Shown here: piece after piece, positions 19,741 through 44,156 of the stretch
Layout of the letters: the number at the start of each line of letters is the position of its first letter
How positions within the stretch are numbered: the first letter of the stretch is position 1
Assembly (NCBI GenBank): GCA_910574455.1
Contig: CAJSYZ010000001.1
Coordinates: forward strand, 4,509,424-4,573,423
DNA length: 64,000 bases
Direction: 5' to 3'
DNA from: Trichaptum fuscoviolaceum
Taxonomy: Eukaryota; Basidiomycota; Agaricomycetes; Hymenochaetales; Trichaptaceae
Made by a program: the position numbers and the translations under genes
Notes under the pieces: generated by a model
Databases searched by the model: none
Told to the model about the DNA's origin: nothing
What the model saw: the letters and a program-made list of their open reading frames with translations, nothing else

Positions 19741-19767
19741 CAAATCGCGTTTCTCGTTGTACTACAA

Positions 19768-19801
19768 CATCAGGGAAACTTCCTTTTGCTTACGGCGACT
19801 G
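19768..19801 (+). repeat. Left terminal inverted repeat of the giant element
   Basis: Pairs with 44,099-44,132. It lies 193 bp upstream of the F-box gene 1 start codon and 28 bp past the conserved TTAGGGCCGG motif. Confidence 0.75.
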
Positions 19802-20856
19802 GCGCGTCCTGGCGCGCCCTGAAGCTTTCTTAAATGGGTCGAAGCGCTGCCACGCCTGCCTGAAGGGTTGTCTGGCTGCCTGATGGCCTTAAAACACGGC
19901 GTTTCAGGATAAAATCAGTGCAAAAGGAGGGGAATTGTACATCAGGCGGCAAGCCAGGATTAAGTGAGGTTTAAGCACCGGCATGCCAGTGGGCAGTTCA
20001 AGTGCAATGGTAAGTGCAACATAAGTGCATCAGTTTCGAAACGGAAGTTCTCCAAATTGGATGTCATCACTCAACTTTGATGCTGTGTATCATTGCACTT
20101 ACCAACTTGAATACATATTATATCTGATAAACACATGCCAGCAATATGATATTTCTAATCTTTCATAGTAAAGTAAAATGTTTGTTCTGGTGGAAGCGAG
20201 AAAACAATTTGCATTGAAGGAGCACCGCTACTACTACTACTAGTACTAGAGTAGTACTAGCCTGAGTCATGCCTGTGTCGATTTAAGTTGTTGTGGAAAT
20301 TTTGAAAAGTCAAGCCCTGAATCATAGAGAGAGACTGGAAGATGGTAGACTACTTGTAAGTGAATAAACAGTGCTGAGGCAGGAAGTTATACATACCCTA
20401 GCATTTTTTGAACGAACCTCACACCTCTCATAACAACCGACGCTGCCACTAGTAGCGTCAGAATTCTCCGAGTCTATCGTATACTGTAGGAAACAAAGGG
20501 TCAGCTCTCAATCTGTACTGAGATAGTAAACGGCTTGAATCACCTTTGTCAATCGCGTCCTCTTCGTCCAACTCGCGCCTTCCTCCGACTCGGACTCCGC
20601 AATTAGACATAAATGCTGCTATGAAGCGCAGGATAAAGGTTATAATGTTGAGTAGCATGACAGTTAATGATCGCGCGAGCATAGGATATTTAGCAAAGAG
20701 ATATTTTGTCCTCCTTTTATAACTTGAAGCTGTTTGAACCATTCTTCTGGATTATTCGAAAGAGCGCTCACCGCACACCGCCTGCGAGTCCGAGTCACAC
20801 TGCGCAGCGCTCTGATTCTGATGGAAGAGAATAAATCCGCTTTAGTACGAAATCAA
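19802..20856. other. Non-coding left subterminal region
   Basis: No gene. The first copies of the dispersed words appear here (GCCAGTGGGCAG and GTTCAAGTGCAATGG near 19,985). A TAC/TAG microsatellite lies at about 20,228-20,260. Confidence 0.5.
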
Positions 20857-21236
20857 GTAAAGTTCATCTTGAAGTCGTCTTCTTGATTTCATTACTCTGA
20901 AGAAGCATTGGGAGACTTTGTTATATCTGATTTCCGAAGTTGATCCGGAAAAAAGAACTCACAAAATTTTAAGAGATCGAGTCACAGTCATCTTGAAGCT
21001 GTCTTCATTTCTCTGAAGAAGCATTGTGAAGACTTTGTGATATTTGATTTCCGAGGAGACGGAAAAAAGGAACTCACGAAATTTTAAGAGATCGAGTCAC
21101 AGTCATTTTGAAGCTGTCTTCATTTCTCTGAAGAAACATTTAAAAACTTCGTGATACCTGATTTCCAAGGACTCGGAATCGGTAACGGAAAGAAGGAACT
21201 CACGAAATTTCAAGAGATCGAGACACATTCAAACTG
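20857..21236. repeat. Tandem repeat, unit about 115 bp, three copies plus
   Basis: The marker AAGAGATCGAG starts at 20,971, 21,086 and 21,212, giving periods of 115 and 126 bp; the last unit carries a short insertion. Each unit contains CTTGAAG.TGTCTTC, CTCTGAAGAA.CATT and GAACTCAC.AAATTT. Copies are roughly 85-90% alike by eye. Confidence 0.85.
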
Positions 21237-22072
21237 TTTCAAGCCCACTCAGGCTAGCACTCCTCCTCGTCCACCACACTTTCTATCTTCGCCTCTTGGG
21301 TCCGAGTCTGCGGCTGTCCGCCTTAAAGCACGCCTTCTTTTGAGTGACCGGGGAACCGCGGAGGGGGGTGGTGCGACAACTTTCCAATCGCCTACTAAAC
21401 ACTGAGTCTTTCAACGTTCGAGCTCAGGTAATTTCGTTCCTCGTCTGGGCCTGTAATTCCGAGCGATAGCGAGGTTGTGTAGTTCGCCCACGTCGCCATA
21501 GGTTTCTTGGGCTTCCTCGAGGAAAACGGTGGAGGAAGTACAAGTTCAACAATACAGCCTGAGGTGGGTGTAAAAAGCGGTGACTCAACTTGAAGTGACA
21601 CTGGCAGTCACAGGATACCTTCCTATGATTTTGGCTGTGCGCTCACTGGCACTGCCAGTGGCACCAAGGCTGCCACTGCCAGTGCAGTGGCAGCAGGCTG
21701 AGCTAAAATCTATGCTCTTGTTCACTTTTTCCTGCCTCATTTTCTCGATATTATCTCAAAAACTTATATGATATCCATACTTCTATCACTATGCAGTTCT
21801 TGAGACCTCAAATGTGATGGTAAAGTGCTTTAACACCCTTCTGTCCTTCATGAGGGGTAACGTGTGACAAATTAAGTAGTCACTGGCAGGCTGTAGCTTC
21901 AACAAGTTCGAAAACGAAGCTGCTCAGGCTGACGTTTGTCAGTGCCAGGACCAGCAGAGATGATGTCGCGTGCACTGAAATAGTACTTATGTAGTACGAA
22001 GCCTATCATCATGATGGTACATATGAGTTGTGGTTCCTTGGATTGCATTCATATTTACTCACCTTTTCACCA

Positions 22073-22739
22073 GTACCAGCAGCTCCAGTTTTACCAAAGC
22101 CACTAACTACTGCAAAGACGTGGAGTAATTTTACGCAGTAAATATTCCGTGAACTAACTTAGAGAAGCAATAATAAATAATTAAAAGTGAACGAGAACGA
22201 GATTCGAACACACGACCCGCGTCAGAATATGAATTACCATAAAGAGAAGCCGCGCTCAAGTCAACTAGACTACTGAGGCTTATACTACCTTGCCTCACTT
22301 AGTAATTATATACTGTCCCAACGGGGCGCAGCCCCGCAAGGAGTTAGGGTTATTGTTAGGGTTATTGTTAGGGTTATTTAAGGGTTAGTGGGGGGTTTGG
22401 GGGGCTCTGCCCCCCATAGTTAGGAGTTAGGGTTTGGGTAAGGGTTAGGGTAGATAGGTAGTTAGGGTTGTTAGGCTTAGTGTTGAGGATATATATAATC
22501 CCCCTTAGTGTAGTGGTTAATATGTCGTATTAGTTAGTTTCCGGTTTAGGCTTTTATAGAGTCGCAAGTTCGAGTCACGTTTGTGTCGTTTACTTATATT
22601 TTGTATATGTTACCACGCTATTTGGTATTACCACTTTGTATTACTTAGGTATTATTTCTACGTGGAATAATTACTGCTCTGATTTACCCCACGTCTTTGC
22701 AGTAGTTACTGGACTTGGTAATACTGGATTGGCTGGTAC
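22073..22739. mobile_element. Foldback element: inverted arms, tRNA-like boxes, telomere-like core
   Basis: Inverted arms of about 80 bp lie at 22,073-22,152 and 22,660-22,739 and share CACGTCTTTGCAGTAGTTA and GGTAA.ACTGG. Inside each arm is a Pol III-like pair: B-box GTTCGAATC (minus, 22,209-22,201) with an A-like box at 22,272-22,262, and A-box TAGTGTAGTGG (plus, 22,506-22,516) with B-box GTTCGAGTC at 22,568-22,576. A-to-B spacing is almost equal, 63 and 62 bp. The core contains GC-rich hairpins and TTAGGG repeats. The arms can be read in one frame (VFAVV.G.G.TG), which hints that they derive from a duplicated coding exon. Confidence 0.65.
22340..22475 (+). repeat. Interstitial telomere-like TTAGGG repeats
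   Basis: At least nine GTTAGGG or near copies occur within about 135 bp, spaced irregularly (GTTAGGGTTATT three times, then AAGGGTTAG, GGAGTTAGGG, AAGGGTTAGGG, AGTTAGGG). TTAGGG is the usual fungal telomere unit. A hairpin of six G and six C around CTCT (near 22,401-22,418) interrupts the array. Genes on both sides show this is not a chromosome end. Confidence 0.8.
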
Positions 22740-23573
22740 GCCTCCCCTTTTCTATCCACTCTATTTCATGTTTCTCCGAGTCTTCAGGAGGTCCTTCAAG
22801 TTCTTTCTTCGCCGTTCCCCATCCTTCAAGTTGTACAGACCTCGTACATATCTATCCCTATTTCCTTTATGCCGTAAACCATCTTCATGCTGCCTCTTCG
22901 TGCATCGTCTACAATATATATATCTCACAGTATTTGCAGAAATGTATCTTATGATAAACCCACTACTATAGCAGTATTACTCGAACATGGTGGTAGTTCG
23001 GTACCGGAGCCTGAGGAGGGTCAGAGTCCACTGCCACTGGCAGTGGCAGCCTGAGCTTCAACTTGAACGATGGCAATGCATCATGATCCGACTTGGAGGC
23101 TGAGTCGTATGACTCCGCAACTTGAACTTTCCGTGTCCCCTTCAAGTTTAACTTCCAACGTTGTTACGCATACAATGATTCAAGACCATGATTATACAGC
23201 CTGAAGTTCAAGTGGCTTCATCTTGAAGTAATAAGCAATAATTCCCCATAAACTTCAAATCAGGGCCCATCCGCCGAAGGAAGACGATCCTCCAACTGTC
23301 CGAGTCCAAGTCGCGAATCATGTCACTAGAACAAGTACAAGTTCAAGTTATCACTGGCTACTAGCTAGCAGTATACTTCAAGTTCACGGATGGAAACCAC
23401 ACTTGCAATATCATTCCCATTTCCTCAAGTCATACATGTACTACCACATAAAGCGCACGCCAAAGGCCATCAAACACAGAGCAGGAAACAAACGTACAAA
23501 TACGCAACACCATCGCATGAGAATAAGAAAAGAGCTCCACTAATTACTACTATAGGAGTTGAGAGGAGCATCG
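22740..23573. other. Non-coding, repeat-word-rich
   Basis: No gene. It contains CCACTGGCAGTGGCAG (about 23,033-23,048) and many CTTGAA/TTCAAG words. It holds the 3' side of the peptidase gene. Confidence 0.5.
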
Positions 23574-26301
23574 TTATACTTCATTGTCCGGAAGTGCATT
23601 CATGCCTAGCTTGAATTCACTTTCAGCTAGAGAAAAAGAGGTCTCAAGATCTTTCACCGTTTGCCATAGAGCGACACCATAAGTATAACCGTCGAGTACA
23701 CTCTGATTATCCCTATCCCTCGCTTCGATGAGTCCACAAGCTGAAATGGTACCAACTGCACGTCTGTGCTGATCAATGATTATGGCACCCGAATCCCCCG
23801 GTTCTGCGAACATAGCATTGTTCCTATGCCCGATATTCCCTAAACCAACCGAACCCGGTGGGATCTGTAAAGCAATATGCGTAGTCTGCTCAACGTGCCC
23901 AGGGGAAACCTGCATAGATCTGAGAACGGCAGCAACGTTGTTGACCTCGCCTAACGTATGGCCAGTTTTCCAGCCCCATTTGTACACAGTTCGCTTAAAC
24001 CCCACAGCGACGAGATTGTCGATGAAAGTCCATCCATAATCATAATCTGCGTCCAATTGGTGCTCCTGGACCCGGGGGAATATATTTTCTTCCGGAACAT
24101 ATCCCGCAATTCGGATTGGACTAAAGAAGTCCCTCCCTTTCCAGCCAAGCCTAGACAAGAGTGCTTCTCGTGGTACAGACTGAGCTGCCGACGATGGAGG
24201 AAGCCTATTAATGTCGATGACGTTATAGAAATTGTTCCAACTGAGACCTTCACCATCAGTAGAGGAAAATTCAAATTCGTTGGGGAGGCATTGGTCGTCC
24301 ACCTCGATCAAGCACCAATCCGTAAGGTAGGGTGTCTTGGAGATAGTCAAGTTACCCATTCTTCGAGGGGGAGCATTGGCCACTTTCCCAATACGATTAT
24401 TAATCCACAAATGTGGCGATGACGTCTTATCAAGCCAAGATTGCTCAATGAATTGACACTTGTTTACGATATCCGCGAAAGCTTGTTGTTCAGCAGACGG
24501 CGGAAGATCAGGTGCCAGTGACTGCCAGTGAGTAAACGCTGCCGCTTCTAACTCATCGTGAAGCGCGCCAATCATTGGCACATGGGCGGCTAGAGCCTCG
24601 CGAGAGAAGAGATAAATTGGGCAATTGTCGTTTGGGTCGCGCGGCTTAATTGTTGTATCTGCGTATGGATCGTAGTCTCCGAATTTCGAAGGAACGTTGC
24701 CATGGCGAGTACCGAGGATGAACACCTTGAACGTCGTGTTATCGAGCTTTTGTAGGATAAAGAGCGACCCCGTTGAGAAGCCACCCTCCAGATTTGCCAA
24801 GGCAAGTTCCTGTGACCATGGAGAAAGACGGTGTCATACGACTGATTGGCTTGTTGGCAGCTGCCACTGGCCTGCTTGGGAAATCCATCATGCGATCCCA
24901 CAGGCGGAAATAATTATCGGCTCCCGCAGGTGCGGTGAACAGTATCTCTGTTGGGTAGGCGTAGGGTTCTGCCCCCGTGAGCGCTAGCGACAAGGGGCCT
25001 GGTGCTGTTACCGTCATTATGCTCAGTGACATCCCCCGCACCTCCATTGTTCGTCGGAGCAGTGCGACGATCGGAACGTCTGGGAAGGTTGGTGAGTTCC
25101 GGATGAAAACTGAAGCCAGTGTGAACGGGAGCGGTATTGCCAACGCCAGTCTCAGCATGACCGCTAGCCAGAGTATTTGAGTCGCCGGTGCCAGTGCGCA
25201 CAACAGGTGGAACACTGACAGAAGCTTTGCCCTGGCCTGAGGCGCTAATGATTTTTCGCTCCCTGAGCTCGACCTCAACGTCGAAGATGCGCATTTCAAA
25301 GAGGAACTCTTTAACGCGTTCCGCGATGCGGCACGCATCTTCAGTGCGAAGTGACGGGTCGTTGACTCCGATCAAAACAAAAACAGGGCACACCCGACTA
25401 TCTCCGTAGGCAACACGGTTGGCTTCCAGACTGTTCCACCGCAAATTCTCGGAATCGAGATACTTCATGATCTTCTTGAGCAGTTGCGGCCATACATTGG
25501 CAATCCGGTGATTTCCAACAATGCCCACATATTTACGTTTTTTGGTCGCCGTCCAATTGGGACCGGTTCGCCCGAGCAGGCGCGGTTTGCCAGGGAAGCC
25601 AAGGTAGTAACCTTTCTGCTCCTCTTCTGACACATGTGTTCGTCGTGGGAGATAAGCGTTAGGATTTTGCGCGAGAATCGTATTCACAACCGCTGAAGAC
25701 AGGACGGACTTGGTTTGCTGTGACTTCAAGTCTGGTTGAAGGGATGCGAGAGGAATTGATAGTAGGAGGCTTCCCCCCTCCGAGTCTAAGGAACTCGTGA
25801 CGGTGAATGACCCACGGGCAGGGCCACCGGCAATGATAAATCGTTCCCCCGAACCTTGTCCTTGCACAGGTTCGTCATCAGTAATCGCAGTTTCTGGGGC
25901 CTGTGAAACTGGTAACGGGTTAAGTACCAATCAGTTTCGCCAGTGTCAGTGAAGGGAAGGAAGGACTCACTTTCAGTCGGCATTGATGAAGAATGTCCTC
26001 CTGCAGCTTCTTCAACGTTAACCCCTAGGGCCTGCAAAACTAGAGATGGGTGATGCAGTAATCAGTATTGCCAGTGTCAGTGAAGGAAGGCATAGGACGC
26101 ACATTGCGCACTGAAAGGTGGCGTTGTATCTCCCAGTACATCTTCGTCTTGTACTATTGGGGTAGTCAGCAATCAGTATTGCCTGTGACAGAGATGGAGA
26201 ACGCAGAACTCACATCCGCGTCGGTCATTGTTTGCTCTACTAGTAGTATTCCTTGGATGTGGCCCTGGCAAGCCTGGAGGTTGGGGGGCGGTGGATGTCA
26301 T
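23574..26301 (-). CDS. Trypsin-like serine peptidase-domain protein
   Basis: Exon 1 starts at ATG 26301 (MTSTAPQPPGLPG). Exons 26301-26214, 26153-26103, 26039-25971 and 25908 onward are joined by phase-1 introns of 60, 63 and 62 bp. Exon 4 encodes a domain with VFVLIGVNDPSLRTEDACRI and FDVEVELRERK. The C-terminal exon (24809-23574, 412 codons) is peptidase-like: VFILGTRHGN offers the catalytic His and FAEPGDSGAIIID the catalytic Ser. I recall agaricomycete proteins with this two-part plan, but the substrate and role are unknown. The join between exon 4 and the last exon (25,200-24,810) is not resolved; the acceptor CACAG before 24,809 is good but no strong donor stands out. An Asp for the triad could not be fixed by eye. 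Confidence 0.65.
25909..26213 (-). repeat. Three homologous consecutive introns in the peptidase gene
   Basis: Introns at 26213-26154, 26102-26040 and 25970-25909 share a core close to ACTGACACTGGCAATACTGATT, GTGNGT donors and lengths of 60-63 bp. All are phase 1. The exons between them (51 and 69 bp) do not align with each other. This looks more like intron gain from a mobile intron family than duplication of a whole exon. Confidence 0.75.
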
Positions 26302-26912
26302 AGTGGTAGTACTGGTAGTAGTTGCTGGTTACTAGTAAGTAGTAGAAGTGAAAACAAGAGACTACTACTAAATAAATAGTAGTACTGGTAGTACGTCACT
26401 GCCAGCAGAGCCTGAGGGTTCAAGTTCCGAGGCCAGTGAGTGCCAGTCTTTTATACAACTTCAACTCATCATTCACACGCCGGTGCGGCGCCACCGTGAC
26501 TCCGAGTCCGACTCCGAGTCGGACAGGCTCGGAGTCACTGCCAGTGCCAGTGGTGCCACCGTGACTGCCAGTGGCACTGGCACTCAGGTGGCACCATGCA
26601 CTCACTGGCACCTGAGGCTGAGGCTGCCACTGAAGGAGCCTTAACCTGAGGTGGCTGAGAAGTAACTTGAATTCAAATTCAATGATAATGTGGAGTACAA
26701 ATCATGAGGCTACTACTACTACTAGTAACTTCAACTTGAAGTTGAAGCAAACTTTGAACGCAACACGCCATTCAAGAAAATGACAAACATCATACTAGTA
26801 GTAGTTGACCAGGAAGATAAAGATCAAGCAGCTCGTTGCATCCAAACCCTTCAAGTTGTCCTGTCACGGTACTCGTACACGGATACCTCCAAATCCGCCA
26901 TTGCCAGTGGCT
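26302..26912. other. Repeat-word-rich intergenic region
   Basis: No gene. It is dense in self-complementary words: CGAGTC runs (26,498-26,535), CCAGTG/CACTGG runs (26,530-26,640), ACTACTACTACTAGTA (about 26,711-26,727) and an AACTTGAAGTT palindrome family near 26,730-26,745. Confidence 0.7.
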
Positions 26913-29900
26913 TCACTGTGTGATCGTCTGAGTTGACACATCTGTGAGCTGCTGCACGCCTGCGCCTAAAATCCGAAGTACCAAAGAATCAATGGGTAGT
27001 TCATCCTCAGCCTGCGAGTTGGCGCCTAGTAAGATGGACCGCAACTTCTGGCCCCAAAAACGCCCACTGATATGCGACTCATTGAAATTCCGGCCGTAAG
27101 GTTTGTTTTGATCCGCTATCTCGCATAATGTGAGCAGTCGGGTTTTTACAGGTTCGGGGAAAACATCCTTTTGCACTTTCAAAATGTCCTCAGCATTCTC
27201 AACAAATGTGCGAAGGCCAGCGGGGTCACTGATTTCAGAGCGGTCATGGGCAACCTTGTTTAAAAACATTCGGAATCGTGTGTCGTTGAAAATGTCAGGG
27301 ACGAGTTCGTCTACCAAGATAATTCTCATCGCAGTGTCGAGGGTTAAAGCCTTCTCCCTATGCTCATTACGTCGATTCAATAGCCGCCGTAGTCTCAAAT
27401 CATCGGGAGACACGCTCGTGTCTTCACGGGCTTTGGGGATGGGTTCGTTCGTCTGACCCGCTTTCAGGTCGGCGGATGCCATTGGCACGGTGGCCTCCAT
27501 TTTCAGGCATAAACGGTCGAAGTATTCTTGCATCTCCTTCAACGCGACATTGACCTGCGGCACTTCGAGAGTCCCGCCTACAGCCACGCACGGTATATCC
27601 TCCGGGCCCACGTACTCTTGCCCGTCCAGCTCAGCCATCCTGGCAAAGTGGTCCTCGAAGTGGAACTTTACCATCAAGCCTTTGAACCGATGTTCATACA
27701 TTTGGTCGTCAAAGAGATAGCCGGTAAAATCCTTATCCAGTATTACTTTCGCGTTTGTGTTCCAGGCCGCGTCGGCATCCAGCAAATCAATAGTCTGAGG
27801 ATCCATCGGGTTCCTTTCCAGCTGGCTTAGCCGGCGATCGAGGAGGAAGAATAGTCTTCGGTGAAATTCGAAGACTATAAAAAATCGGACCAGGAAAAAT
27901 TTGAACTGGTCGACGATTGATGCGTTAAGTGGTGGCTGCCAGGAGTATGGCGTCGCCGTCTTTTCCTTCGATGCATCCTCCGACACATCCACAGCCTCGA
28001 ACTCATCCTTTCCATTTCCCTTTCCCTTTTTCCCTTTCCCTTTCCCTTTCCCTTTCCCTTTCCCTTTCCCTTTCCCTTTCCCTTTCCCTTTCCCTTTCCC
28101 TTTCCCTTTCCCTTTCCCTTTCCCTTTCCCTTTCCCCTTTCCCTTTCCCTTTCCCTTTCCCTTTCCCTTTCCCTTTCCCTTTCCCTTTCCCTTTCCCTTT
28201 CCCTTTCCCTTTCCCTTTCCCTTTCCCTTTCCCTTTCCCTTTCCCTTTCCCTTTCCCTTTCCTTTCCCTTTCCCTTTCCCTTTCCCTTCCCCTTTCCTTC
28301 ATCATTTCCCTTCGCATACGCCTCTGTCAGCTCTAACTCTGCCAAGGACTTGGTGATGTCGACAATCAGGTCGTCGAATAGATGCCTTGGAATGATAGCA
28401 ATGTCATTAGACAGGATTGTCGCTGGGCCCTGAGCTATGCCACTCATGCCGACTTCGCCTGTACGTCGTCCTTCCTTTAGCTTCTTGCCCGGCCCAGGTG
28501 ATAGGGTCGCGAACTTCATGTAGAGTTGTTCAACCTTGTTCAAAAAATTTCGAATCATAAAACCACTTTCGCCAGTAACGTCATAAGGGATGACCTGTTT
28601 TGGAGAGAAGAATCCTTTCTCTAATGGGAACGCAATTATGAAGCTTTTCATGACGACTACCCTATTGTCCTCGCAGAGGGTGCGTATTTTACTGCTGGCT
28701 TTGGCGGCTTCGTTCTGGGTGAGATCCTGTGAGCTTCATTTGTTTTACGATAGCAGCTCAAAATTGGCTTACCCCTTTGGCGGCTGCCGCACTAATCTGT
28801 AAGTCGTGTACTGTGTATACAAGACCCTTCACTGTCTCCTGCAAACACTTGTAAGTCCCAGCCATCTCCTCGAGTGTCACTTTGTCCGCCTTCGAGTCCA
28901 ATTCCTCAGTCACATCAACGAATGCGTCGTCAATAGCCCGTATATGTCCTACAATCCGCTGTTCCTTTTCTAGTGACTGCTTTCGATAATTTTCCAGGTT
29001 AGTGAGCCTGCGCGAAGTCACGGCGAAGAGACTCTCCTGAGCTGAAGCTCTCGCGATTAGGGTGTAATCTTGAGCGAGCTGTTTCTTTAGAGCTTCAATA
29101 GCGTCCTCATGCTTTTTCAATTGCTCCTCATGTATATCCTTCTCCTTGTGAAGCTGGAGTGAGTCAGTCGCCCGGCTGAAGTTGGCTTCTGAGAGGTTTG
29201 ATTCGACATTTGAGATAAGTTTTTTGGTTTTCATCAACTCATTCTGCAAAAGCTTTAATTGCTCCTGATCACTGTCCCGCTTATTTATCAGGAGTTCCCT
29301 ATGCCTCCGTTCGAAATCTTCCTTTTCATCTCGAAGCCTTCTTTCTTTCTCCTCAGTGTCGATCCGAAGTTGCTCTAGCTCTTTCATAGAGGCTAAGGCC
29401 TTCATGATATCGTCGTAGGGGGAACGGCCGATGTGTTTGTGGATGTTGCTGCCACTGTCAGATGATCAGAATCGGATGCGTACTCAGGCTGGCGCCATAA
29501 CTCACGACTCAGATACGTCAGCTTCATGTTCCGACACCTTCAAGTTCAAGTTTCCGGCCTCACTGGCATGTAATTCCGTGACTTCGCCACTTGATGCGTG
29601 CATTCCAAATTCAAGAATGGTCAGACTCGGACGCGCACTCAGGCTGATACCGTTACTCACAACTCGGATTCGGCGTCAGCTTCCAGCACTGGCACCTTAC
29701 TGGTACTAGCCTCACAGTCACTAGCAGCCTGAGCGGTATGTGATTCCAAGACTTCGCCACTGCCAGTGGGCCAAATTTAAGAGTCAGAATCAGGCGCATA
29801 GTAATCAGGCTGAGACCGTCACTCACGGTTTGTCCGGAAGTCCGTTTGCGATTATTACAGCTGCGCGTGCTGCTAGGTCTGTCTTTTTTTGTTCCGGGTT

Positions 29901-31495: not shown

Positions 31496-33360
31496 ATGTC
31501 AAGTTCCGAACGCGGGGACGAAACTTCAGGCTCTCGCTCGGATACAGATGACGAGTCAGTCTCTAGCCCGGATACAGATGATGAGCAGAGCGTTTCAGAA
31601 TTCACCATACCTGGTACTCGCGACAGTAGTAGCTCAAAGCGCTCGATTGTCGATGGGTCCGACTCCGAGTCTGGCACCGACTGGGAACAGGATGCATTTC
31701 TCGAACTTATCGATTTCGGTAGGGATATATTGCTTACTTACTACGCAGCTTGGCTTATCTTTGGTGAATTGACAGAGGACTTACCCCGAGGCTTTCAGTC
31801 AAAACTATTTATCGATAGCACCGTGGTCCAATCAATCGTCAAAAGTTTGTCGTCCAAGATAAAGCGTGCAGACCGCGTCGGATTCTCGTCGGAGGACTTT
31901 CAGGAAACGCTTCACCTGGCTGAGCGCCTAGGGATGTGCTTTGATTCAGCAAATATGAGGATCCTTAAGAGGGATAGGGAGATTCAAGCTCTGCGGAGAA
32001 AGATGGAGAGGGCGATAGATCAGCTTGAGTCCAATACATTTCAGTACACGGACATGCTCTTCAAACTCACTGAAGAGCTAGCGATCTTCAAGCATCACAT
32101 GGTAAGCCCAGGCTGCATCTTGGACTTGAAATAAACTCTGACTTAATCATTTCTAACTTCTCGTCCTATTCTTCTCGGTGATATACAGTCTGAGCCGCTT
32201 CATCTGCTTATCAACAAACGTGTGGATGAATTCAGACTTGCTGTCGCCACAGCCTTCATATCTGTTCTTCCCGGCGCATTTCCGTCAAGAAAACTCTCCA
32301 ATATTTTTACTGGGGGCGTCATCTGGGACTACTTTTTGACTTGCTTAGTAACCCATTATCATTCACACCATACGATCCTGCGCTGGCAAATTCGACTTGA
32401 GGATAGTAAGGAGCTCGGCAATCGTTGGATACAGACGAAATCTGTCTTCTCTGCGATAAGGATTGACATCAAAGACACAGAGCTCGGGAGAAATATTCGT
32501 CATGAACTCGCTACTCAATTGAAGCACTTTACGACAGTCATGGCTATGAATCTCGAAAGATCTGAACGCAAACCCCGAAATCCCAGGCTTGCGCTTAAGT
32601 TCTTCCTGCCCCTTCTTATTTGGTCCTATAACGAATGCAAGGATTGGGTAGCCGCCTTAGACGAATGCAGTTTGGGACAACAGTCAGAGTCGACCAACAT
32701 TCGACTCTCGGAAACAGAAGTCAATTGTTCTGCCACTCAGACGAAGGCTGTCTTTCAAGCCGGAACAGCACGTGATGCACGGCGTCAATGGAAACGTGAA
32801 CTTGAACGTGCCGGTGGAGAGGGTGCTCTGTCCGACATTCAACAACTCATTCAGAAGTCAATGGATATTCTTGGCGCCGACTCGGCTGACGGCGTAGCAT
32901 CCTCGTTGAAGATAAATCGACAACTCCTGCGCAAATATGGAGACCGTTCGGCCATCCTGAGCAGGTTCAATTGGATCAGGAAATGCTTAATTATCCTCTC
33001 TGACGACTTGCTCTTGGATATGCTCCTCAAAAATGATGGTGCAATGCGTCGGTTTACGATGAAGATGGATGCCTCTCAAATAGGGATTATCGAAGCGAGT
33101 CAGGGCATTGGACGATTTGACAATGCCGATTACAAAGATACAGAGAGGAAAATCTGGACAGGTCCACCCACTTGTTCCTCAAGGATATCGAGCACATGGA
33201 GCATCTTGAAGCCCTTGTTCCGACAGAAGAGAATATTGACTCTCTCGTCTTGAAAACAGTCAACGATCTACTTCATGAGTATGGTCCATTCTATTTAACG
33301 GATTATGGAATCCTATTTGCTCTTCTCGACAAATTGGACCCTATCCCACACCAGTACTGA
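31496..33360 (+). CDS. Uncharacterised protein with acidic/Ser-rich N-terminus
   Basis: Not recognised. The start is ATG 31496. Exon 1 (31496-32101) has an Asp/Ser/Glu-rich leader of about 60 residues, then a helical part with charged heptads (RILKRDREIQALRRKMERAI). An 87 bp intron (32102-32188, phase 0) leads to exon 2, a helical domain (LALKFFLPLLIWSYNECKDW, KINRQLLRKYGDRSAILSRF). As read, frame 1 stops at 33253. The neighbouring frame continues with protein-like sequence (LKDIEHMEHLEALVPTEENI) to a stop at 33360, so an unplaced intron or a 1-base change near 33,130-33,170 is likely. Confidence 0.55.
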
Positions 33361-34628
33361 TATAAGTACGGCAGTGTACTAGCTGACGGTTACAAATCGA
33401 TCCATTGGTCACCGGCACACCATTTTGGCTGAGGCCCAAGGACAAGTTTTTTTTCGTTCATGGACAAATATTATGTTTAAGGATTTGTACTCTTACTATT
33501 TAATGGTTTACTCTATGGTGATCCACTTACTCTTCTCTCTTCAGACTCTACTCTTTACAAGTCAGCTCTGTACTATAAGTACTAGTATTCAAGTTAGAAA
33601 CCACTACCGCCAATAAATCTTCTTGAATATGACAAAATAATATTTAATAATATTCATATACTTATCTTTATGACAGGTGCTCAACATGAACTTGAAGTCG
33701 TAGTACTACAGTACTACTACTCAGCCTAGTAGTGGTACATTTTGAAGTTTAAAGTACTCATATTCAAGTTTTTTTTTTGATATTTCATACTATGCAAGTC
33801 GGGAACTGCAGTGATACACCACTATCAGCCTGAGGCTACTCAATCATCCTCCATCATATCTACGCTTTCCTCTGAAGCGCTTCATGTGTACTATGTAGTA
33901 TACAGTATTACTACTATGCTAATCGTACTATTTGTAACTTCAAGTTCAAAACATAGCTAACTTGGAGAGGAAAGCATGCCTCTTTCCGGATGCCAATGGG
34001 GAACTTCTGGCCTGAGGTAGGTCACTGGCATGATCCGACTCGGCGAGTCAGTTTGAGCTTGAGTCCGCTGATGGCAATGTGAGCTTCTCGAGAGTTTGTT
34101 TTTTACTAGGTCATAACTAGTACTGTCATTTTATTATATCTCAACACTGAATTTGTCGTACTGTTTCAAGTTGTAACTTCGAGCCAACGTACTAGTAGCT
34201 ACCAGTGAGTGGAAACTTGAAGCATGCCTCAGGCTCTTTCCGGATTCAAGTTGAGAACTTCCGGCCTGAGGTAGTACTACTACTAGTACTAGTAGTAGTA
34301 GGTCCGAGTCATTGGTTCGAGTCAAATGCCAGTGTTCAACTTGAAAGCACTCAGGCTTTCAAGTTGGATTGGTGTTATGTAAAAAAATTTGTACCAATAG
34401 TACTGTACTAGTACTAGTACTACTAGTACTACTACTACTGTACTACTCGACGCCGGCGGCCGCCCGGGGAATGATTTCCGACCATCGCACTGACTGCAAT
34501 ATTTGGCTACCATCATCTACAACACTGAAGAAGGTCTGTTTTCACATCATTTTCTTTCAGTACCGTAGTATCCTCAATTCATAAGTTTCAATATACTCCG
34601 TATGTGCTGAATGAAAAGTTTATGTTTA
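33361..34628. other. Intergenic with palindromic microsatellites
   Basis: Holds the 3' ends of two convergent genes and no gene of its own. TAC/GTA palindromes at 34,271-34,301 and 34,399-34,447. CGAGTC, CCTGAG and CAAGTT words throughout. Confidence 0.65.
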
Positions 34629-37600
34629 TCACTGTCTATTTTCGTACAAAGATTCGTGCATGTGCATGTCAGCAAATCGGTTAACATAGAATCTATCATA
34701 AAAGTCCAGGGACTTCTCAGGTGTCAATGACTTCGGCGGACATTCATCACCCTTTGGAACCCCAAGGAGGTGAGCCAAACGAAAGATGTCCCCTATACCT
34801 ATCACCAATAGCTTCGGAGCCTTGCAGTCACGGTGATAGTGACGTCTGCCACTGGCATTCACACCAGAACAGCATTCAACACAGGCGGTAGAGGTCTCTA
34901 ACTCATATTCCGGCTCGACAATCCACATACTTGTTTTTGGGTCAGGCGAGTCTCCAACACGCTTGAACAATTGGACGAGAGCGCAGTCCTGATGCTCCCC
35001 TTTAGCGGTGAAGGAAAAAAGAAGCATAACCCGGGCAACTCTCATTCCTGAAAACCCCTTTTTGCGGGGGCTAACTCGAACAAGGACTGCGTCATGTCTT
35101 GCTTTTCCGCGCCAAGAGGGATTGGACCTGATCACCTCCCTCATTGCTTGTTCTATTGGGATCGATTCGCCACGGTAGGCAAAGAAAGCGGTGGCTGAAT
35201 GGAAAATTGAGAAGTCATTGTTCATGTCCAATTCAGCTGTTGGTTCGGCTCTGCCAGAGGAGCCCCTTAAGTTGGAATTGCGCTTCTCGTACTTGTTGAA
35301 TAAGTATTCTTTAATGAGCTGTCGGAGCTGTCGAAGCTCTGGATGGCCTTTTATCGCCGCAAGCGCGTTGAGCTGTTTCGGGTACACCTTACTGGACTCT
35401 GCAAGTATAACAACAGAGAAGTCAGATGTGCAGCACCAAAAGCACGGGTTACTAAGTAATACTAACGTTGTTTCGAAGCCATTAACATCAAGCTCAAAGG
35501 GTCATTTCTGCCGCCCAAGCGAAGCTGGCATTCTACGCTATGAACCGCACCACACTGGGGCTCATCCACTGAACTTCCGGAATCCTCCAGGTCAGCAATT
35601 TCGATTTGCTCTTGGTTGCCCACAATGTCATCGAAGAAGTCCTCTGTATCATCGGCTGCCCCTGTTGTTTGTACGCCATGATGTTGCATCTGCTCCCTCT
35701 GGGTTGGGGCCTTCTCGGCGTCATCCGTCTTTGACTCTGACATATTTTTCCGCAAAACGTCTCGCAAGGCATTCCACATAGCCTCAGCCAGCGTATCGTC
35801 CAGCAGTCCACGCCTTTTGAAGTCTGCCCTCGACGCAATAAGTTTGCTGAGTCGTTGGTTTGCTGTGATCATCTGTCCCAAAGGATCATTTCTGTTCGAG
35901 CGCGCCGCCATGTCTCCTTGACCGCGTGAATGTGTTTATTTTCTGTTATAGACGAACACAATCCGCTAGGAGCAGCAAAGAGAGGGATCATTGTTGGATA
36001 ATGGACCATGGCATGTTGTCGTGGCAGTGAAAAATTATCCCGGATGCCCTTTGCTATGAATATTTGCCGATATTGATGATAGTGATCCAGAGAGGCTTTA
36101 ATTTGATCAAGATTTGAGGCTGTAATCGTGTACCGACGCACAAGGTAACAGAAGTCCAGAAATGCACTCAATGCATGAATTATATCATCGTGCACAATGC
36201 CCACAATAGCCGGAAGATACACCTAAGTGGATTGCATCAGATATCAGCAAACCACCGCCTCGAGCGAGATGCAAAGACCACATACTTTCATAAGCGCCTT
36301 TGAATCATTACCTGTCCATTGCTTGAAGCCTCGACCTTCAGGAAATCTGCGAAGACCAGGAAAAGGAGCAGCAACTCTGATTCTACGTGAAAGTTAGCAA
36401 TGGTATTCACATTAAACGACTTGTAAGGTAATAGTGCCTTTTATCCACAATATCCAGCTCTGTCGTGGTCATGCACTGGCAAATCCACTCAACAAGATGG
36501 TCCTTGAACACGCCTTTGATGATTTGGTGCAGCAGGTCCGGAGATATGAGATCGCATATATCTGCGCGCGGAAAGTCATTGGTGAAAGGCTACAGAACAA
36601 CATACAAGTTGCAGAATACGCATCCAGTGAAGAAGTTGAAGTACGTACCACAATATCCTGGTGGAACCCGTACTCTTTCCGGATTGTTGCTCTATTAATG
36701 TTGTTGCCATCTACTTGATCTATCAATTGTTCGTGCAGCTCTTTTGTTCGAGGATTTGAAACAAATTCCAAATTATCTAGGTCCTTGTGAGGTGCTGTGC
36801 ATCTATGCCGCCACAGTAAGTCATTGCCTCAGACTCGGATATGATTTTGGGAAAGGACGGTACTTACTTGCAGCACCATCCAGTGCATATTGCGCATAGA
36901 CTCACCTGTTCCGGATAATCGGCTATATACGAGCCGAGTCCGAGAACCGACCTACGCAAGTGACCATCAGGACACCGGAGAATGGTTAACTCAGTGTTTA
37001 TGGACATGGCGGTCTTCAGTGAACTCAAGATTTTTGATATAGACGAATGAAAAATTTGATGTCGAAAGCGGCGGAATTCATCTGACTTTTCGTATTGCCG
37101 CTCAGCTGCAAAATGTGTCAGAGCTAATCAAATATTACGGTATGATACACACTCTTTGGTATTGCTAGAAATGCTACAAGCTGGACTGTATTCAATTTCT
37201 GTGACCGCCGGGCCTTGTTAGATACATTCCCGATGGAGAGATACAACGGATAGTATTCGTTATTTCCAGTTCCGACAGAGACTGTTGTCTTATCGCTCCC
37301 TAAGATCACCGGAACAAACATAGATCCATGGACTGCTTTATCTTCGGCGTAGATCTTGTTCTAGGTCAAGGATAATCAGCATGTTTCCTGCGAGTTTATG
37401 ATTCATGACCTACAGCCTGTTCCCAAGCAAAATTTCCGGACATGTAATTTCTGAATACTCGTTCTTTGTCATCAGAGTCCTCCTTCGGCTGATACTCGCG
37501 AAACGGGACATAGTCGAATTCGCCTTCCAACGCCGGATTGTCCACCAAATTCCGGATCACTTCCAGAGGATCCCGATACCATACATCATATTCTTTCCTC

Positions 37601-38599
37601 TTCCATGACTCGGTGTTCTCGTTTGTCGCCTTTTGGCCATTGTCGTCCGTGTAGAAGTTACTAAAGGACTTCCAAGACACATCACCGACTTCCGTAGCGT
37701 CAATGACGGTGTACAAATTTTGTGCGTCTCCATCAAGTAGCGAACTAGTTATACCTAGATCCGAGTCATTGTCAGGCTCTGTCGTATCCAATTCGGAACA
37801 TCCGCCAGATTTTACATTCTCCGCCACCTGAATCAGCTGATAAGCCTTCATGATTCCGAGAATTTTTGTTATGTTCCCAGCAGACATTTGCTCTTCCCGA
37901 TACAGAAAATCTGCGAGCTCGAAATCTGCTCTGCACGAATAGGGAAACCAGACATTAGACACAGGTTCGTTTCGCGGAACGGGTGGTTCTTCATTTTCTA
38001 AGGAAATTCCTGCCGCATCGCATGGCGTGGCTGCACGGTGTCAGGTGTCAGAGTACTGCAGTAAACCGGGGACAATAAACATGACACGCACCATTCAAGT
38101 ATCTGTGATACACCTTCAAGTTATCCTCGCTCTCCTTATAATCTCCAATGTCGGAGTCCAAATCTTCAGAGGATGCGCTACGGCCATCACTTCCGGTGAC
38201 AGAATGATGGGACAGAGAATCAGCTCCGTCTAAATCTTGAAGCAGCTCGTCTCGGCCTATGCTAAGCATCGAGATATCCTGTGTAAGTATAGAGATGTCG
38301 TAATCGTAACTTGAAGAGCCGCAGCCCATTTTATCTTCAAGTTGACCCTCGACCCGGAGTTCGGGGGAGTTCGAGATACTTTTAGGTTCTGGAACTTGTG
38401 CGGGTCGAATGGGTGATGAATCATAACCATAAGCAGCAGGTCCTGATGCAAATGATGATGGATGAGCTGAGTATTCATGTCTTGTTCTTGCGGATTGATT
38501 CTTAAACCTTCTGTCGCAGTCGGAGAAGGTACATCGAATGGATGGGGGGAAGAAATCAGTAAAATGAACGGGTTTGGGCTTTCGCCGTGTTACCGGCAT
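34629..38599 (-). CDS. Plavaka-type transposase
   Basis: Large DNA-transposon transposase. The start is ATG 38599. An N-terminal C2H2-like finger (CTFSDCDRRFKNQSARTRH) precedes a Ser/Asp linker. Intron 1 is 38091-38031. The family blocks follow in order over several exons: NVWFPYSCRADFELADFLY, YDVWYRDPLEVIRNLVDNP, FVPVILGSDKTTVSVGTGNN, YYPLYLSIGN, ILRCPDGHLRRSVLGLGSYIADYPEQ, CTAPHKDLDN, FTNDFPRADICDLISPDLLHQIIKGVFKDHLVEW, VYLPAIVGIV, SAFLDFCYLVRR, LPRQHAMVHY, GLCSSITENKHI. These match Plavaka transposases as I remember them. Coding blocks join through plausible short introns with no internal stop seen, so the gene may be active. A Cys/His patch near the C-terminus (CVECC..H..HRDC) may bind zinc. 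It faces away from the 39.2 kb partner. Confidence 0.85.
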
Positions 38600-39188
38600 C
38601 GACTTGGATGCAACCTATAGTAGTACCTATTAGCAACTTGAAGTCGACTTTTGACTTACTTCGACTTTTGACTTACTAAGTTAGAACATGAATCCCCAGC
38701 CTCAGGCTGAAGCTGTCAACTTGAACTTGAAGTAGCACTGGCAGCGAATCGAGTTCGCCAAGGTGGACTCGCGTAGTAGGAGCTAGTAGTAGTCTACCTG
38801 GCAGATTTGCTAGTAGTACGGTAGAAGGCTGCGGCTGAGTGCCTTGACTCACTGACTGCCAGTTCCAGTGTCAGGCTTGCCGTCTCGGTCGCCGGAATCC
38901 GAGTCGGAGTGCAACTTCAAGTTGAAGCCTGCCAGTGCCAGTCTGAGTGAGCCTGAGTGCCAGTGCCAGCGCCAGTGCCAGGTACCGCCGTGACTCAGGC
39001 TCGCTCACTGGCACTCCGAGTCACTGCCAGCCTGAGTGCCAGTGGCAGGCTGGCAGTGGGCGTAAATTTTCCTTGAATAGGCGCCCTCATCTTCAACTTG
39101 AACTTTAACTTGCACCTTTGACTCTGAGTCGACTCACCATCGATATTCATAGCACCTGCCAGTGTGCCCCTATTACTACTGCACAGGA
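38600..39188. other. Shared divergent promoter/subterminal-type repeat region
   Basis: Lies between the transposase and its divergent neighbour. From about 38,860 to 39,060 nearly every base belongs to CCAGTG/CACTGG, CGAGTC/GACTCG, CCTGAG or AACTTGAAGTT words in both orientations. It resembles the repeat-packed control regions that transposase binds in CACTA-like elements. No gene. Confidence 0.65.
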
Positions 39189-42100
39189 ATGTTAACTCAA
39201 AGACAGACGCGGGCTAAGAATAGCGATCAGCATCCGGGAGCGGTAGTCAATAAGCTGCGAACACGTCGAACGAAAGAGGAGATATTGAGGGAGAAGGAAG
39301 GGAAGGAGAGAAGGAGAGAAGAACAGGCATCAAAGCGTGATGAGGCATTGAGGGAGAAGGAGGAGAAGGAAAAAACAGAAGGAAGAACGGGCAGCTCTGC
39401 GCGAAGCTGCGGCACAGCAAGCCGCGTATGCGAGAGAGAAGAGAAAATCATCGCGGAACAGAAACGGGCAGCGAAAGAACAAGAGGCATCTGAGAAGGTA
39501 CGCAAGAAAAGAACTGCAGCAGAGCAACAGGAAACAGCCATACTGGAGACGATGGAGCTTGAGAACAATTTGTCAAAGGCTCTTGACATTCGCACCCATA
39601 TGGGCTCAACTGCACCTAAGCTGGCTGGCACTGGCAAACGAGGGCGAAACAAGTCGAAAGGCGTCCCTGAAACTAGTGAGTCCTTATCTTCAAGTCAGTG
39701 ACAGTCGAGTTATGAGATATGGGCATAACAGGTTCAACGAACGATGAAAAAGACAGCTCTTGTGCAGCTGAAGACGGCGAACATTTAAAGATTCGTAAGT
39801 TGTTTGCCTTTATGACTTTAGACTCCAAGGGTGACCACTTTAACTCACATTATGATGCAGCTAACTCCGATGCGCCCAACAGAGCGCGCGCAAAGAAAGT
39901 TAGGAAAAAGGATACCAGAGGTGCACTTCCTTTCCGTACTCGCGTGCAGGGTGCAAAGGGTTCAAATAGTGCCATAAGTGGCACCGGATATCATAGTACG
40001 CTTGCAGGACAAAACAGCAGTCTTTCTGGTGAGGATACAGACATGATAGAGTCGCCCAATACGTCGAAGCAGAACGATAGGACAAAGCGACCTGTTAGGG
40101 CACTTCGCAACACAGATGGATCCACATTCTTCGGCGGAGAGGGCAGAAACCCTGAGGTCGCAGGGACAGAGGAGATCGACTTGTGAGTTTTAAGTCGTAC
40201 TACTACTCAACCGTTGGCATCATAGTACAAAAGATCAATTTCAAACAAATTCAAGTTGATAGTAAGTGTGAAGCTTGATTTAGACTCAGCTACTTGAAGC
40301 TTATCCGACATCGTACTACAGATTAGTATTACTACTACTAACTTGAGCCTGAGTGCGCCTGGCGACACCGTGCCAGTGACCAGCTTGACCGGCGCGCGGC
40401 GGTGCCACACTCAGGTTGGCACTTAACTGTGACCCCGAGATGCCACCCGGGTTGGCAAGTTGCAGCTTCTTCACTTATAATGCTCACATTCTTATCTTTA
40501 TTACAAGTTGTGAGCCTGGCTGACACAAGGAAAAACTAGGCTCCCCGTCTTGGCGCAAGACGATGCGAACTTTAGTCCTTGGGAGGATGAAGGAGTGACA
40601 GTAACCCTCACGAGTTTCCAAGGTGTAAAGAATAGCTCAGCTAGCGAACGACAGACGGCACATCTCGTTGACTCCGACACTGATATTGTGAGTTGGATGG
40701 AGCATTAATTAGACTGGCAGAGGAAATCTTAATATTTTGATTGTGCGTTTAATTAGGACGTGAGTAGACTGACAATACCGACCCAAGCCAATGTAAGTGC
40801 CGCTTATACTTCAAAGAAATCGTTTGATTCACAATAACTATACGTCGGTGGAGTCTCATGCACAACGATGGCTATCTAACATCATTTCTGTATCGTAACA
40901 GGATGGAGCTAGCAGCAAATTGAAGAAAAGGAAGCTATCCCGCGACACTCTCTCCGAGTTGCAGGCTCATATAACACTGGTAAGCGGCTTCATAATCTCC
41001 TGTTTCGTTCAAGCTACTTATTTTTCTTTCTTTATGCACTGGAGAAGAAGAATATCAAGGGACAATCGGGCATTCAGGTGAGTTCTACACAACAAAGCAT
41101 GGACTTGGTGCCATACTTTGTTGTGGCCTCCGGCGTCGAATATACTTCCTTCATTACTTACCAAATTGTACTCTGAATAGGGCGCGAGCATGACGAACAT
41201 CGTCAACTCCCAACTCGATGTATTGGTAAGTTTATTCTGCTTTTAATCCTCACCCGTATACTCATCTATTTTCCCGTCAGGACGGTATTTCTGTTGAGGG
41301 TCATAGGGGGCAGTCTCCAGCGTCGCATCTACAGATACAGGTATGTGTAGGCATCGACACTCATTAGGATTACTTTTGGTGCCCCTTTCTTTGGCAAGTA
41401 TCTGGATGTCCACTAAACCTTGTTTATGTGTAGGACAGCATGATTGTGAATAATAAGAAGAGGAAGTCGCCGCCTGACTCAAACTCACATATCGATGTGG
41501 TAATTCGTACTCTTCCACCCAATTTCAAAAGCACTTCCTTACTATCTAAAACAGGCTAGCATGAACGTGTATATGAAGAAGCCTCCATCCCAGGCTGCCT
41601 CAACAGTTAGTGTCAATCACATCTAATTTCCATTTCATATTGTTTTCTGATCAAGCGACAAGGACTTAAATACTGCTAAGGAGAGTGAACCGCAAGACAG
41701 TCATTCTCAGGCTGATATACTGGTATTTAATTCTCTTCGAGCTTCCCTTGGTAAGAACTCCTCTAATTGCTACAGATGAAATCTACTACCTCTGTTCGCA
41801 ATCTGAAGAGGTCACTGGCGGTTCATGCACATCATATTGCAAGTGTGAGCTAATTGCTGCAATTGATTCGGTACTTATTCTCGGTTCTTCTGACAGGCAA
41901 GTGGTCGTGAGGCGTCGCCAACACCACAAGCACAATCACCTGCGATGACGACAGTATCCTTCAGTCCCAAACCCGAAGTGCTCGCAACCAAGGCTCATCT
42001 TGGTCATCGCAAAGTCTCTCGGACTACTAGCTCTGTGCGTTGATCCCATTCATGTTTGTGACATGCATCCACTAACTTGCTTACATGCAGACATCTGTAG

Positions 42101-43543
42101 GACTTGAGGATAAGGATAGAAATAGTAAAGGAAGGGAGGGATCCCGCGCTCTCGGCAAAAAAAGGGCAACAAATCAGTGTCTTCCTCCCGGAACTCAGGC
42201 TGGCTGGACTCATATTCTTCTGCCTTCGCTGTATCGCGCAGTCGGAAAGTCCACAACTCCATGGCAAAACCCAGACAATAAGTCCATCGGAACACTGTGG
42301 GGGAAAGTATTTGATTCTGTCGAACTTAGTTACGACACACAATTGGCCGACATCTGTTCTTTAGTTGAGTCATCCCTATTTGTCTTACATCGGCCATACT
42401 GAATCAGGTATGAACTATTCTGTAGGCAGCCCAGAGATGCTCTGATAGTTGGCGGAAGAAATTGTTTGAGAAAGCCGAGCAGTCAATTTCGAGTTTCGTC
42501 GGCAACGAGCGTTCTAAGTCAGTGGAGACCGAAGAAATTGTGAAGATGTTGCAGACGATGGTCGACAAGAAGAAAGCTGAACCATTCCTCTGGGAACGCT
42601 GGCATAGTATGGAAAGGGTGTGTGAGATTTCACTCAATGTCACCCTTCGAGTCCGTGCATTGACTATGAATGTACACAGAAGCAAGGATTGTTCTGCTCT
42701 GACCTCGTAGTCTCAGTGTTGTCCGTGCACATTGTCTTGGCCCTGGGTCGGCATAAAGTATTGGACAAGAACACAATAGGAAAGCCTATAGGTGCCCTCG
42801 CCCTTGCGGCAACAGCGGTATCTATCTACTTCAGTACTTGCAGTGGCTTTATTCACTGAATCTCTCATGGACAGGTCAAAGTTGCAATCGATAAGCAGGT
42901 AGCCCGGTTGCAAAATATCAAAGAAGAGCTTGGTGGTGCTGAGTGGTACTTCACTAGTGCTCTGTGGCAGCCTCATACGGACGACTATGTCAACTTATTG
43001 TCAAATTCCTCGTTTTTCACTGAATCAAACTGGGAGAAGGTTCGGTCCCGCATAGAAGCTTACAACTCCGTTGAAGATGTCAATGCGGGAAGGAACGCCG
43101 AACTTGTTGGATCGGGTGTCACTGGCAGGGATTTCTCCCTATATATCGACGTTGGAGACGCGGATGCGAGCGGCGAGTATACACATGGTGAGGGCGCTAA
43201 TAGAAGTGGTAAGTGCAAGGAGAGAAACGAAGACAAGGATAATGACGGCGAAGAAGTTGAGGATTTCAAGGAGAGGGAGGACGACATGGAGGACGAGGGT
43301 GTGTCTGGCGAGGGAGACGAGGACAAGGATCAGGATGAGGACAATGACGATGAAGAGGACAAGGATCAGGATCGGGATAAGAACAAGGATGCGGACGAGG
43401 TTCTTAGCGTGGGTGATGGATTCAGTGGAGGCTCTGAGGGCGAGGCGAATGACGCAGACAGAAAGGGCGGGGAAGGCGAAGGCGATCGCGAGGACGACGA
43501 GGGTTCATTATGGGATTCGGCTACGGACGGCGCAGACTTTTAA
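39189..43543 (+). CDS. Multi-mini-exon protein, divergent partner of the transposase
   Basis: Function unknown. Exon 1 (39189-39675) codes a charged coiled coil (KEEILREKEGKERRREEQ). Exon 2 starts at 39732 and exon 3 ends at 40183. A repeat-bearing intron then leads to exon 4 (40540-40687). Ten small exons follow: 40757-40792, 40902-40979, 41048-41077, 41181-41225, 41281-41340, 41434-41499, 41555-41605, 41663-41722, 41776-41844 and 41897-42034. All are phase 0 and multiples of three. The next exon (from 42091) has LPPGTQAGWTHILLPSLYRA, a motif I associate with agaricomycete transposon-linked proteins, though not surely. Later exons give a helical part (QNIKEELGGAEWYFTSALW) and a very acidic Asp/Glu/Lys tail to the stop at 43543. 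A possible alternative last exon lies near 43,622-43,700. Confidence 0.6.
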
Positions 43544-44098
43544 GAGCAGGTCGATCACTGGTGAGCTTTGGCTTTAACCATCCTGCCACTGTATTCAAAC
43601 ACTTACTATCATCAACTTGCAGTGGCCTTCGTTCTCTGAGTATGCCGAGGAACAGGCAGAAGTGGCGAAATACGATCTGGATCAGGATGCCGTGGTGTAG
43701 TTACTGAGGGACACTGAGGCACTGATTTCTACTTATCTGTCTTAAATTACTTGTGGAAATGAACCAATACTGGAACCTCTTAGTACGCACTTACACGCTT
43801 GGGTACTGCAAACCTACAGACGAAAAAGTCTACTTATATGATTAAATGCTGAATTACTTATGGAATGAACTACTTGAACGTCTTACACACTTTTACTCTT
43901 GAGCACTGGCAATTAAACTGCCAGAATAAATTCTTCTGATATGCTTGAATGCTGGAGACTGAGGCACTGAGAGCACTGATTTCAGTTGACGGCACTGAAT
44001 TCAGTAAGCCCCTTCCTGAATAATGAAACCACATGCCTGAAATCAGTAAATCAGTAGAATTTTACTTCCCAGGGCTTCAGAGGACTTAAGGCCGGTTA
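43544..44098. other. Right subterminal region of the giant element
   Basis: No gene. It contains repeated ACTGAGGCACTGA, ACTGAATTCAGTAA and CTGAAATCAGTAAATCAGT words around 43,705-44,060. They resemble, but are not identical to, the words in the left half. Confidence 0.5.
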
Positions 44099-44132
44099 AG
44101 TAGCCGTAAGCAAAAAAGAAGATTCCCTGATG
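44099..44132 (-). repeat. Right terminal inverted repeat of the giant element
   Basis: Reads on the minus strand CATCAGGGAATCTTCT, then GCTTACGGCTACTTAACC. It pairs with 19,768-19,801. Confidence 0.75.
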
Positions 44133-44156
44133 AATGTACACGCTCCGAGTCGTACG

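Follow-up and report, generated by a model that had tools for sequence, protein, structure and literature searches.

Is the gene-rich block at positions 19,768-44,132 of the stretch studied here a single transposon that moves with all its genes, or a smaller element surrounded by unrelated DNA? The stretch, called the window below, comprises 64,000 nucleotides of the Trichaptum fuscoviolaceum genome (contig CAJSYZ010000001.1, positions 4,509,424 to 4,573,423), and the block contains a Plavaka transposase gene among several other genes. Our analysis indicated that the block is very probably one copy of a giant PlavakaB-type transposon family with a unit of about 23.5 kb. The presence of five extra genes in a cut-and-paste element of the Plavaka kind is unusual. 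A first-pass annotation of the window had already proposed a single large transposon with these borders, and this proposal was confirmed by 2-bp target-site duplications, by empty sites and by a collinear second copy.

Ends, copies and insertion as a unit

The two ends of the block were compared by alignment. The matching inverted termini of about 33 bp that had been reported there were recovered: over the first 33 bases of the left end, 30 were identical between the two ends in an alignment with a single gap, and the similarity then decayed. The tips are of the CATCA/TGATG type (5'-CATCA..TGATG-3'). Searches covered the genome of 59,093,390 bases in 12 contigs (C1-C12), and the best 40 candidate places were scored in each similarity search. 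The 29-bp left tip gave 146 + 152 matches at up to 3 mismatches and the 30-bp right tip gave 26 + 29; the reversed controls gave 0 + 0 in both cases. With the terminal 101 bp as query, at least 40 left ends were scored, 32 of them 100% identical, and at least 40 right ends, 30 of them 100% identical. Each left end was joined to the nearest convergent right end, which yielded 35 accepted pairs. A further pair (C5:5,230,612-5,269,105; 38,494 bp) was obtained from the right-tip pattern, so that 36 convergent pairs with both termini were found. The 35 pairs ranged from 15,207 to 81,027 bp (median 30,477 bp, sum 1,220,455 bp), and all 36, nested insertions included, made up 2.1% of the assembly. 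Five further copies beside the window's measured 23,510-23,676 bp. The shortest two pairs were 15.2 and 17.9 kb, and none of the pairs tied the termini to a small element. Neither of the refuting outcomes named in the first-pass annotation, a terminus lacking further copies or termini joined to different, smaller elements, was observed.

The evidence for movement as a unit came from the flanks and from the interior. A second copy (C2:3,466,529-3,490,038; 23,510 bp) was collinear with that of the window over its whole length between the tips, with 78 substitutions (0.33%) and 33 indels, the largest of which adds 684 bp to the window copy. An exact 2-bp target duplication was observed in 19/19 rows with both flanks available and a 3-bp duplication in 0/19; the set held 36 rows, the 36th pair lying outside it, and one of the 19 repeats the left flank of another, giving an independent count of 18/18. 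The flanks of 18 elements were joined with one copy of the duplication kept and were searched genome-wide. The results revealed a junction-spanning match elsewhere, that is, an empty site, for four of the 18 (Table 1), and all four sites lay in repeated sequence. No such match was found for the other 14 among the matches listed, which is not evidence of absence because only 40 candidates were scored per search. The duplications and the empty sites indicated that the copies were inserted as units. In addition, four interior probes (transposase; gene 1; genes 2-3; genes 5-6, numbered as in Table 1) were searched genome-wide, in a tally that omits 77 short low-complexity rows (of 113 in one search). 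The 35 pairs enclosed 147 of the 156 matches (42 + 41 + 36 + 37), none of them wrongly oriented; six of the remaining nine fell in the 36th pair and three near single ends. All four probes were present at full length in 13 of the 35 pairs.

Copies differ in size because of nested insertions, deletion and a 4.35-kb duplication that recurs. Gene 1 occurred twice at full length in seven of the 35 pairs, and in six of these the two occurrences were 4.34-4.35 kb apart. Since these six copies occupy different places, the version of about 28 kb with the 4.35-kb tandem duplication has probably itself moved. The other large copies had probes split by inserts or partly missing; sizes above 28 kb therefore need not be transposed sizes. 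Reading the whole 15.2-kb copy showed that it arose by deletion and contains inserts: it kept 2.9 kb of the left end and 3.5 kb of the right end, had lost about 17 kb, and contained a Ty3/gypsy-like gag-pol (by eye) and one other insert. The 684-bp nested insertion of the window copy contained telomere-like TTAGGG runs and, on both strands, tRNA-B-box-like stretches (by eye).

Table 1. Features of the window element, neighbouring open frames (window positions) and empty sites of other family members (contig positions)
Feature	Position	Strand	Description
Target-site duplication AA, left copy	19766..19767	none	
Left terminal inverted repeat	19768..19801	+	5'-CATCAGGGAA...; alignment, tip search
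Subterminal tandem repeat	20888..21178		115-bp unit, 2.5 copies
Nested insertion	22062..22745		684 bp, 76-bp inverted arms; absent from second copy C2:3,466,529-3,490,038
Gene 1	23574..25983	-	putative trypsin-like peptidase; His, Asp, Ser motifs
Gene 2	26913..29603	-	~800-aa coiled-coil-like protein, KG-repeat tract; gene model
Gene 3	31496..33253	+	~560-570-aa protein, no Pfam match at cut-off; gene model
Gene 4	34629..38599	-	Plavaka transposase, multi-exon; PF18759; out of frame in C-terminal third
Gene 5	39189..40186	+	313-aa basic/coiled-coil-like protein; gene model
Gene 6	42558..43543	+	288-aa protein, acidic C-terminus; gene model
Right terminal inverted repeat	44099..44132	-	...TTCCCTGATG-3'; alignment, tip search
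Target-site duplication AA, right copy	44133..44134	none	
Open frame, ends 241 bp left of element	18564-19526		no Pfam match
Open frame right of element	50528-51418		sub-threshold F-box-like match
Empty site of 30.7-kb element C2:5,233,109	C7:4,950,430		168 bp, 100%
Empty site of 28.2-kb element C8:3,291,362	C10:894,483		170 bp, 99%
Empty site of 34.8-kb element C1:4,652,916	C2:5,723,354		165 bp, 98%
Empty site of 27.9-kb element C9:3,075,131	C9:3,104,581		121 bp, 98%, 36 bases left of junction

The transposase and the five other genes

The transposase was modelled with eight exons, from 38,599 down to 35,902, and 765 codons without a stop. Its PF18759 match (E = 2.3e-117) covered profile positions 4-325 of 325, and a sub-threshold C2H2 finger (Pfam) was observed at the N-terminus. 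The enzyme had been described as intact-looking; this holds for the complete PF18759 domain and fails after codon 765, past which the window transposase no longer keeps the reading frame seen in the second copy and in the sister family described below. Such frame differences may reflect either decay or assembly error. A homologue search yielded 2822 relatives at E <= 0.001, and the 120 listed were 44-56% identical; we take the named relatives to be Agaricomycetes. No transposase of the KDZ (Kyakuja-Dileera-Zisupton) type was found, the enzyme matching PF18759 along with the sub-threshold zinc finger. No tyrosine recombinase captain was detected among the Pfam-scanned proteins (some small frames lay outside the scan), and no TET/JBP gene was detected among the scanned element proteins. 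A Polinton or virus origin was dropped, with no matching domain among the scanned proteins. The termini, the duplications and the complete PF18759 domain suggested that the block fits the PlavakaB lineage, which is related to CACTA/EnSpm.

Besides the transposase, the gene models predicted five genes, one more than the four counted in the first-pass annotation, and the same five were modelled in the second copy. The strongest support for these models came from the long exons and from the sister family. Compared with the second copy, gene 1 of the window contains small indels; there, one 2.3-kb exon is open and gives a 779-aa model. Two relatives of gene 1 (92 and 75% identical) were found among 7991 scored candidates, and no homologue of gene 5 was found at E <= 0.001 among 4596 candidates. 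The gene 1 residues H409, D535 of the DWxLI motif and S711 of the GDSG motif were conserved in 3/3 aligned sequences, the most distant of which was 34% identical. Its invariant motifs were RHG, DWxLI and GDSG, which we take to be motifs of trypsin-type (S1-type) peptidases. Gene 1 had no Pfam match at the cut-off and no solved-structure match; PF22315 and PF07303 appeared below threshold. Structure predictions of the full-length protein and of the peptidase-like part were unusable, with a mean predicted local distance difference test (pLDDT) score of 27.3 and 28.0, respectively. The peptidase assignment is therefore a motif-level proposal. The other Pfam matches below the cut-off (TrAA12, BUD22, TPR_IFT121, MerR and others) were discounted, being probably chance hits to low-complexity or coiled-coil sequence.

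A diverged sister family and the two blocks

At 17 of 30 left-tip loci, the first 44-55 bp matched and the remainder did not match at the DNA level. These loci belong to a sister family, and one of its elements (C2:960,217; 33,937 bp) was read to the end. Its tips are of the same kind, and TG is duplicated at its borders. All six genes recur in it in identical order and orientation, with gene 2 assigned by weak similarity. The sister gene 1 was 28% identical by BLAST and 34% in the multiple alignment, and was present in two copies as a tandem duplication. For gene 3 the identity was 28% over 285 columns, for the transposase 39-92% depending on the piece, for gene 5 63%, and for gene 6 68% over 175 columns. 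At C2:960217-979900, the gene-1 stretch is tandemly repeated with an offset of 6.3 kb (8.8-kb self-match, 99.7%); a duplication of the gene-1 block is thus present in both families. A sister gene-1 probe, with the best 40 of 97 candidates scored, was used to measure distances to the tips on contigs C1-C7, the 14 matches on C8-C12 being outside the count, after 25 window-family tips had been removed from the 100 listed. The results showed that 26/26 of these matches were preceded, at most 25 kb upstream, by a tip with the same orientation; for 16 of them the distance was 4.95-4.97 kb.

The ratio of nonsynonymous to synonymous substitution rates (dN/dS) between the families was 0.21, 0.08 and 0.32 for three transposase pieces, 0.18 for gene 5 (first exon), 0.22 for gene 6 (110 codons) and 0.17 for gene 1, where synonymous sites were saturated. 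These results demonstrated purifying selection in the transposase and in genes 1, 5 and 6. Because the sister family keeps the six genes and the dN/dS values are low, the extra genes look like constrained element genes rather than captured cargo. The locus had been called a cargo element; extra genes are indeed carried, and the word cargo probably sets the wrong emphasis, since this set of genes is retained in a diverged family.

The divergence between the families was not uniform along the element. From the transposase gene rightward, the families aligned in blocks at 70-84% DNA identity; leftward of it, no DNA alignment was found between them apart from a region no more than about 400 bp from the left tip. 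Synonymous divergence was 0.2-0.5 in the transposase, 0.63 in gene 6, 0.84 in gene 5 and saturated in gene 1. We infer from these patterns that the two halves of the element may have different histories, with blocks exchanged between lineages. A similar pattern would be expected if the right half had undergone gene conversion.

Alternative readings, known systems and flanks

Several observations weigh against a giant transposon family that moves with all six genes. One or more full-length probes were missing from 22 of the 35 pairs, and all four from the 15.2-kb pair. An empty allele of the window site was sought in this genome and was not found; the left flank of the window copy is single-copy in the genome and its match stops exactly at the junction. 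The transposase frame is lost in the second copy too, at another place, so that the transposase of either copy may be inactive. The gene models were produced by an in-house finder with 24 long open frames of the window as its training set, and such models avoid stops by construction, and the trypsin-type resemblance of the putative gene 1 peptidase lies in motifs only. The sister gene 2 was recognized by short matches, the best at E = 5e-5 in a comparison against this element's proteins alone. The selection test covered the transposase and genes 1, 5 and 6. Finally, 4/40 left and 5/40 right ends had no accepted partner. Among these left ends, the right end of C10:472,927 would also serve a nearer left end, C1:5,063,217 and C4:1,609,999 had none near, and C1:5,148,558 has a left flank in common with a paired copy. 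Four of the five unused right ends were only 88-89% identical. The left ends at C1:5148558 and C1:5248410 lie 100 kb apart with the same host flank, which suggests a segmental or assembly duplication.

A dead family, in which every copy is a decayed relic and the extra open frames mean nothing, is an explanation that we consider unlikely. The small frame-shifting transposase differences in both copies read, the many copies with missing or split probes and the one deletion derivative are in its favour, but 30-32 copies have ends that are 100% identical over 101 bp, the long exons of genes 1, 2, 3, 5 and 6 in the second copy were modelled stop-free, and selection between the families was purifying in the pieces tested. 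Considerably less probable still is the recent capture of host genes as cargo by a Plavaka element of normal size, in the manner of Starship transport. Such a capture could account for five non-transposase genes inside the element and for the few relatives among the scored candidates (two for gene 1, none at E <= 0.001 for gene 5). However, no host-resident gene copy was found among the scored probe matches, whose nine outsiders lay in the 36th pair or near single ends, and both the conserved order and orientation of the six genes in a strongly diverged family and the low dN/dS values of the four genes tested argue against it. A smaller Plavaka element with unrelated neighbouring sequence between two chance-similar tips is scarcely credible, since it is already refuted by the second copy, collinear tip to tip, together with the 13/35 pairs with four full-length probes, the five pairs at 23.5-23.7 kb beside the window's, the 18/18 independent duplications and the four empty sites. 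In its favour, tips of the left type are frequent on their own (298 matches at <=3 mismatches), and 17/30 left-tip loci belong to the sister family, whose interior differs at the DNA level.

For the giant PlavakaB-type family, we propose that a DDE transposase would cut at the CATCA/TGATG tips and that the cut unit would reinsert at target cuts staggered by 2 bp. The five extra genes would serve the element and not the host; their most likely roles would be to control transposition, to process proteins or to evade silencing. The left block (genes 1-3) and the right block (transposase and genes 5 and 6) may have been exchanged between element lineages, and the window copy may depend on other copies for its movement. 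On a broader view, which we hold tentatively and with rather more doubt than conviction, giant PlavakaB elements would form a distinct and long-lived class, each built as an obligatory six-gene machine with two exchangeable blocks, one for transposition (transposase, genes 5 and 6) and one with helper functions (peptidase-like gene 1, coiled-coil gene 2, and gene 3), which recombine somewhat like phage modules; the helper block would process proteins or disarm host silencing. These findings imply that a CACTA/Plavaka-type element can spread as a 23-kb, and probably a 28-kb, unit to many sites of a fungal genome. With conserved extra genes, one of them peptidase-like, the needs of large transposons beyond a transposase become testable. 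Genes in such blocks could also be mis-annotated as host genes.

PlavakaB elements are described with 5'-CATCA..TGATG-3' termini and target duplications of 2-3 bp, and the TET-bearing Plavaka families are all placed in PlavakaB (Kojima 2025, PMC12730594). The window element shares these termini, 2-bp duplications and a Plavaka transposase; it differs in the unit of about 23.5 kb with five additional genes, published lengths being outside the comparison, and in having no TET/JBP gene among its Pfam-scanned proteins. Enlarged En/Spm (CACTA) elements of 16-20 kb with 4-5 open reading frames (ORFs) have been reported in the red alga Chondrus crispus (Kojima 2013, cited in PMC6431247). They are likewise CACTA-related cut-and-paste elements enlarged by extra ORFs, whereas their transposase lineage and host are different and the window element is larger. 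Starships, a class defined by a tyrosine recombinase captain (Tremella, PMC13066641), are also fungal, tens of kb long and rich in genes. In contrast, the window element has a Plavaka transposase, inverted termini and 2-bp duplications, and the gene set of its family recurs in many near-identical copies. In the agaric Marasmius oreades, KDZ and Plavaka elements together account for about half of its DNA elements (PMC8290104, PMC9674265), and the longest element of the curated repeat library is about 42 kb (PMC9674265); it may be a size precedent. The nearest size precedents in these sources are thus the 16-20-kb En/Spm elements of the red alga (PMC6431247) and the ~42-kb entry of the M. oreades library (PMC9674265). 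No Plavaka element of such size or gene set was found in the literature searched, with Repbase and supplements outside the search.

The open frames on either side of the element (Table 1) are 31% identical to each other. The left one had been annotated as an F-box gene, which is weakly supported by its identity to the right frame with the sub-threshold F-box-like match; the left frame itself gave no Pfam match. A 254-bp inverted repeat (44157-44681; 94% complementary, 17 nt between the arms) starts 24 bp right of the element and resembles a miniature inverted-repeat transposable element (MITE) hairpin. Farther right, two sets of inverted arms, 46 and 105 nt long and 78 and 84% complementary, lie about 10 kb apart at 53732-53885 and 63750-63902 and are possibly those of another inverted-repeat element; a photolyase-like open frame (PF03441) lies between them.

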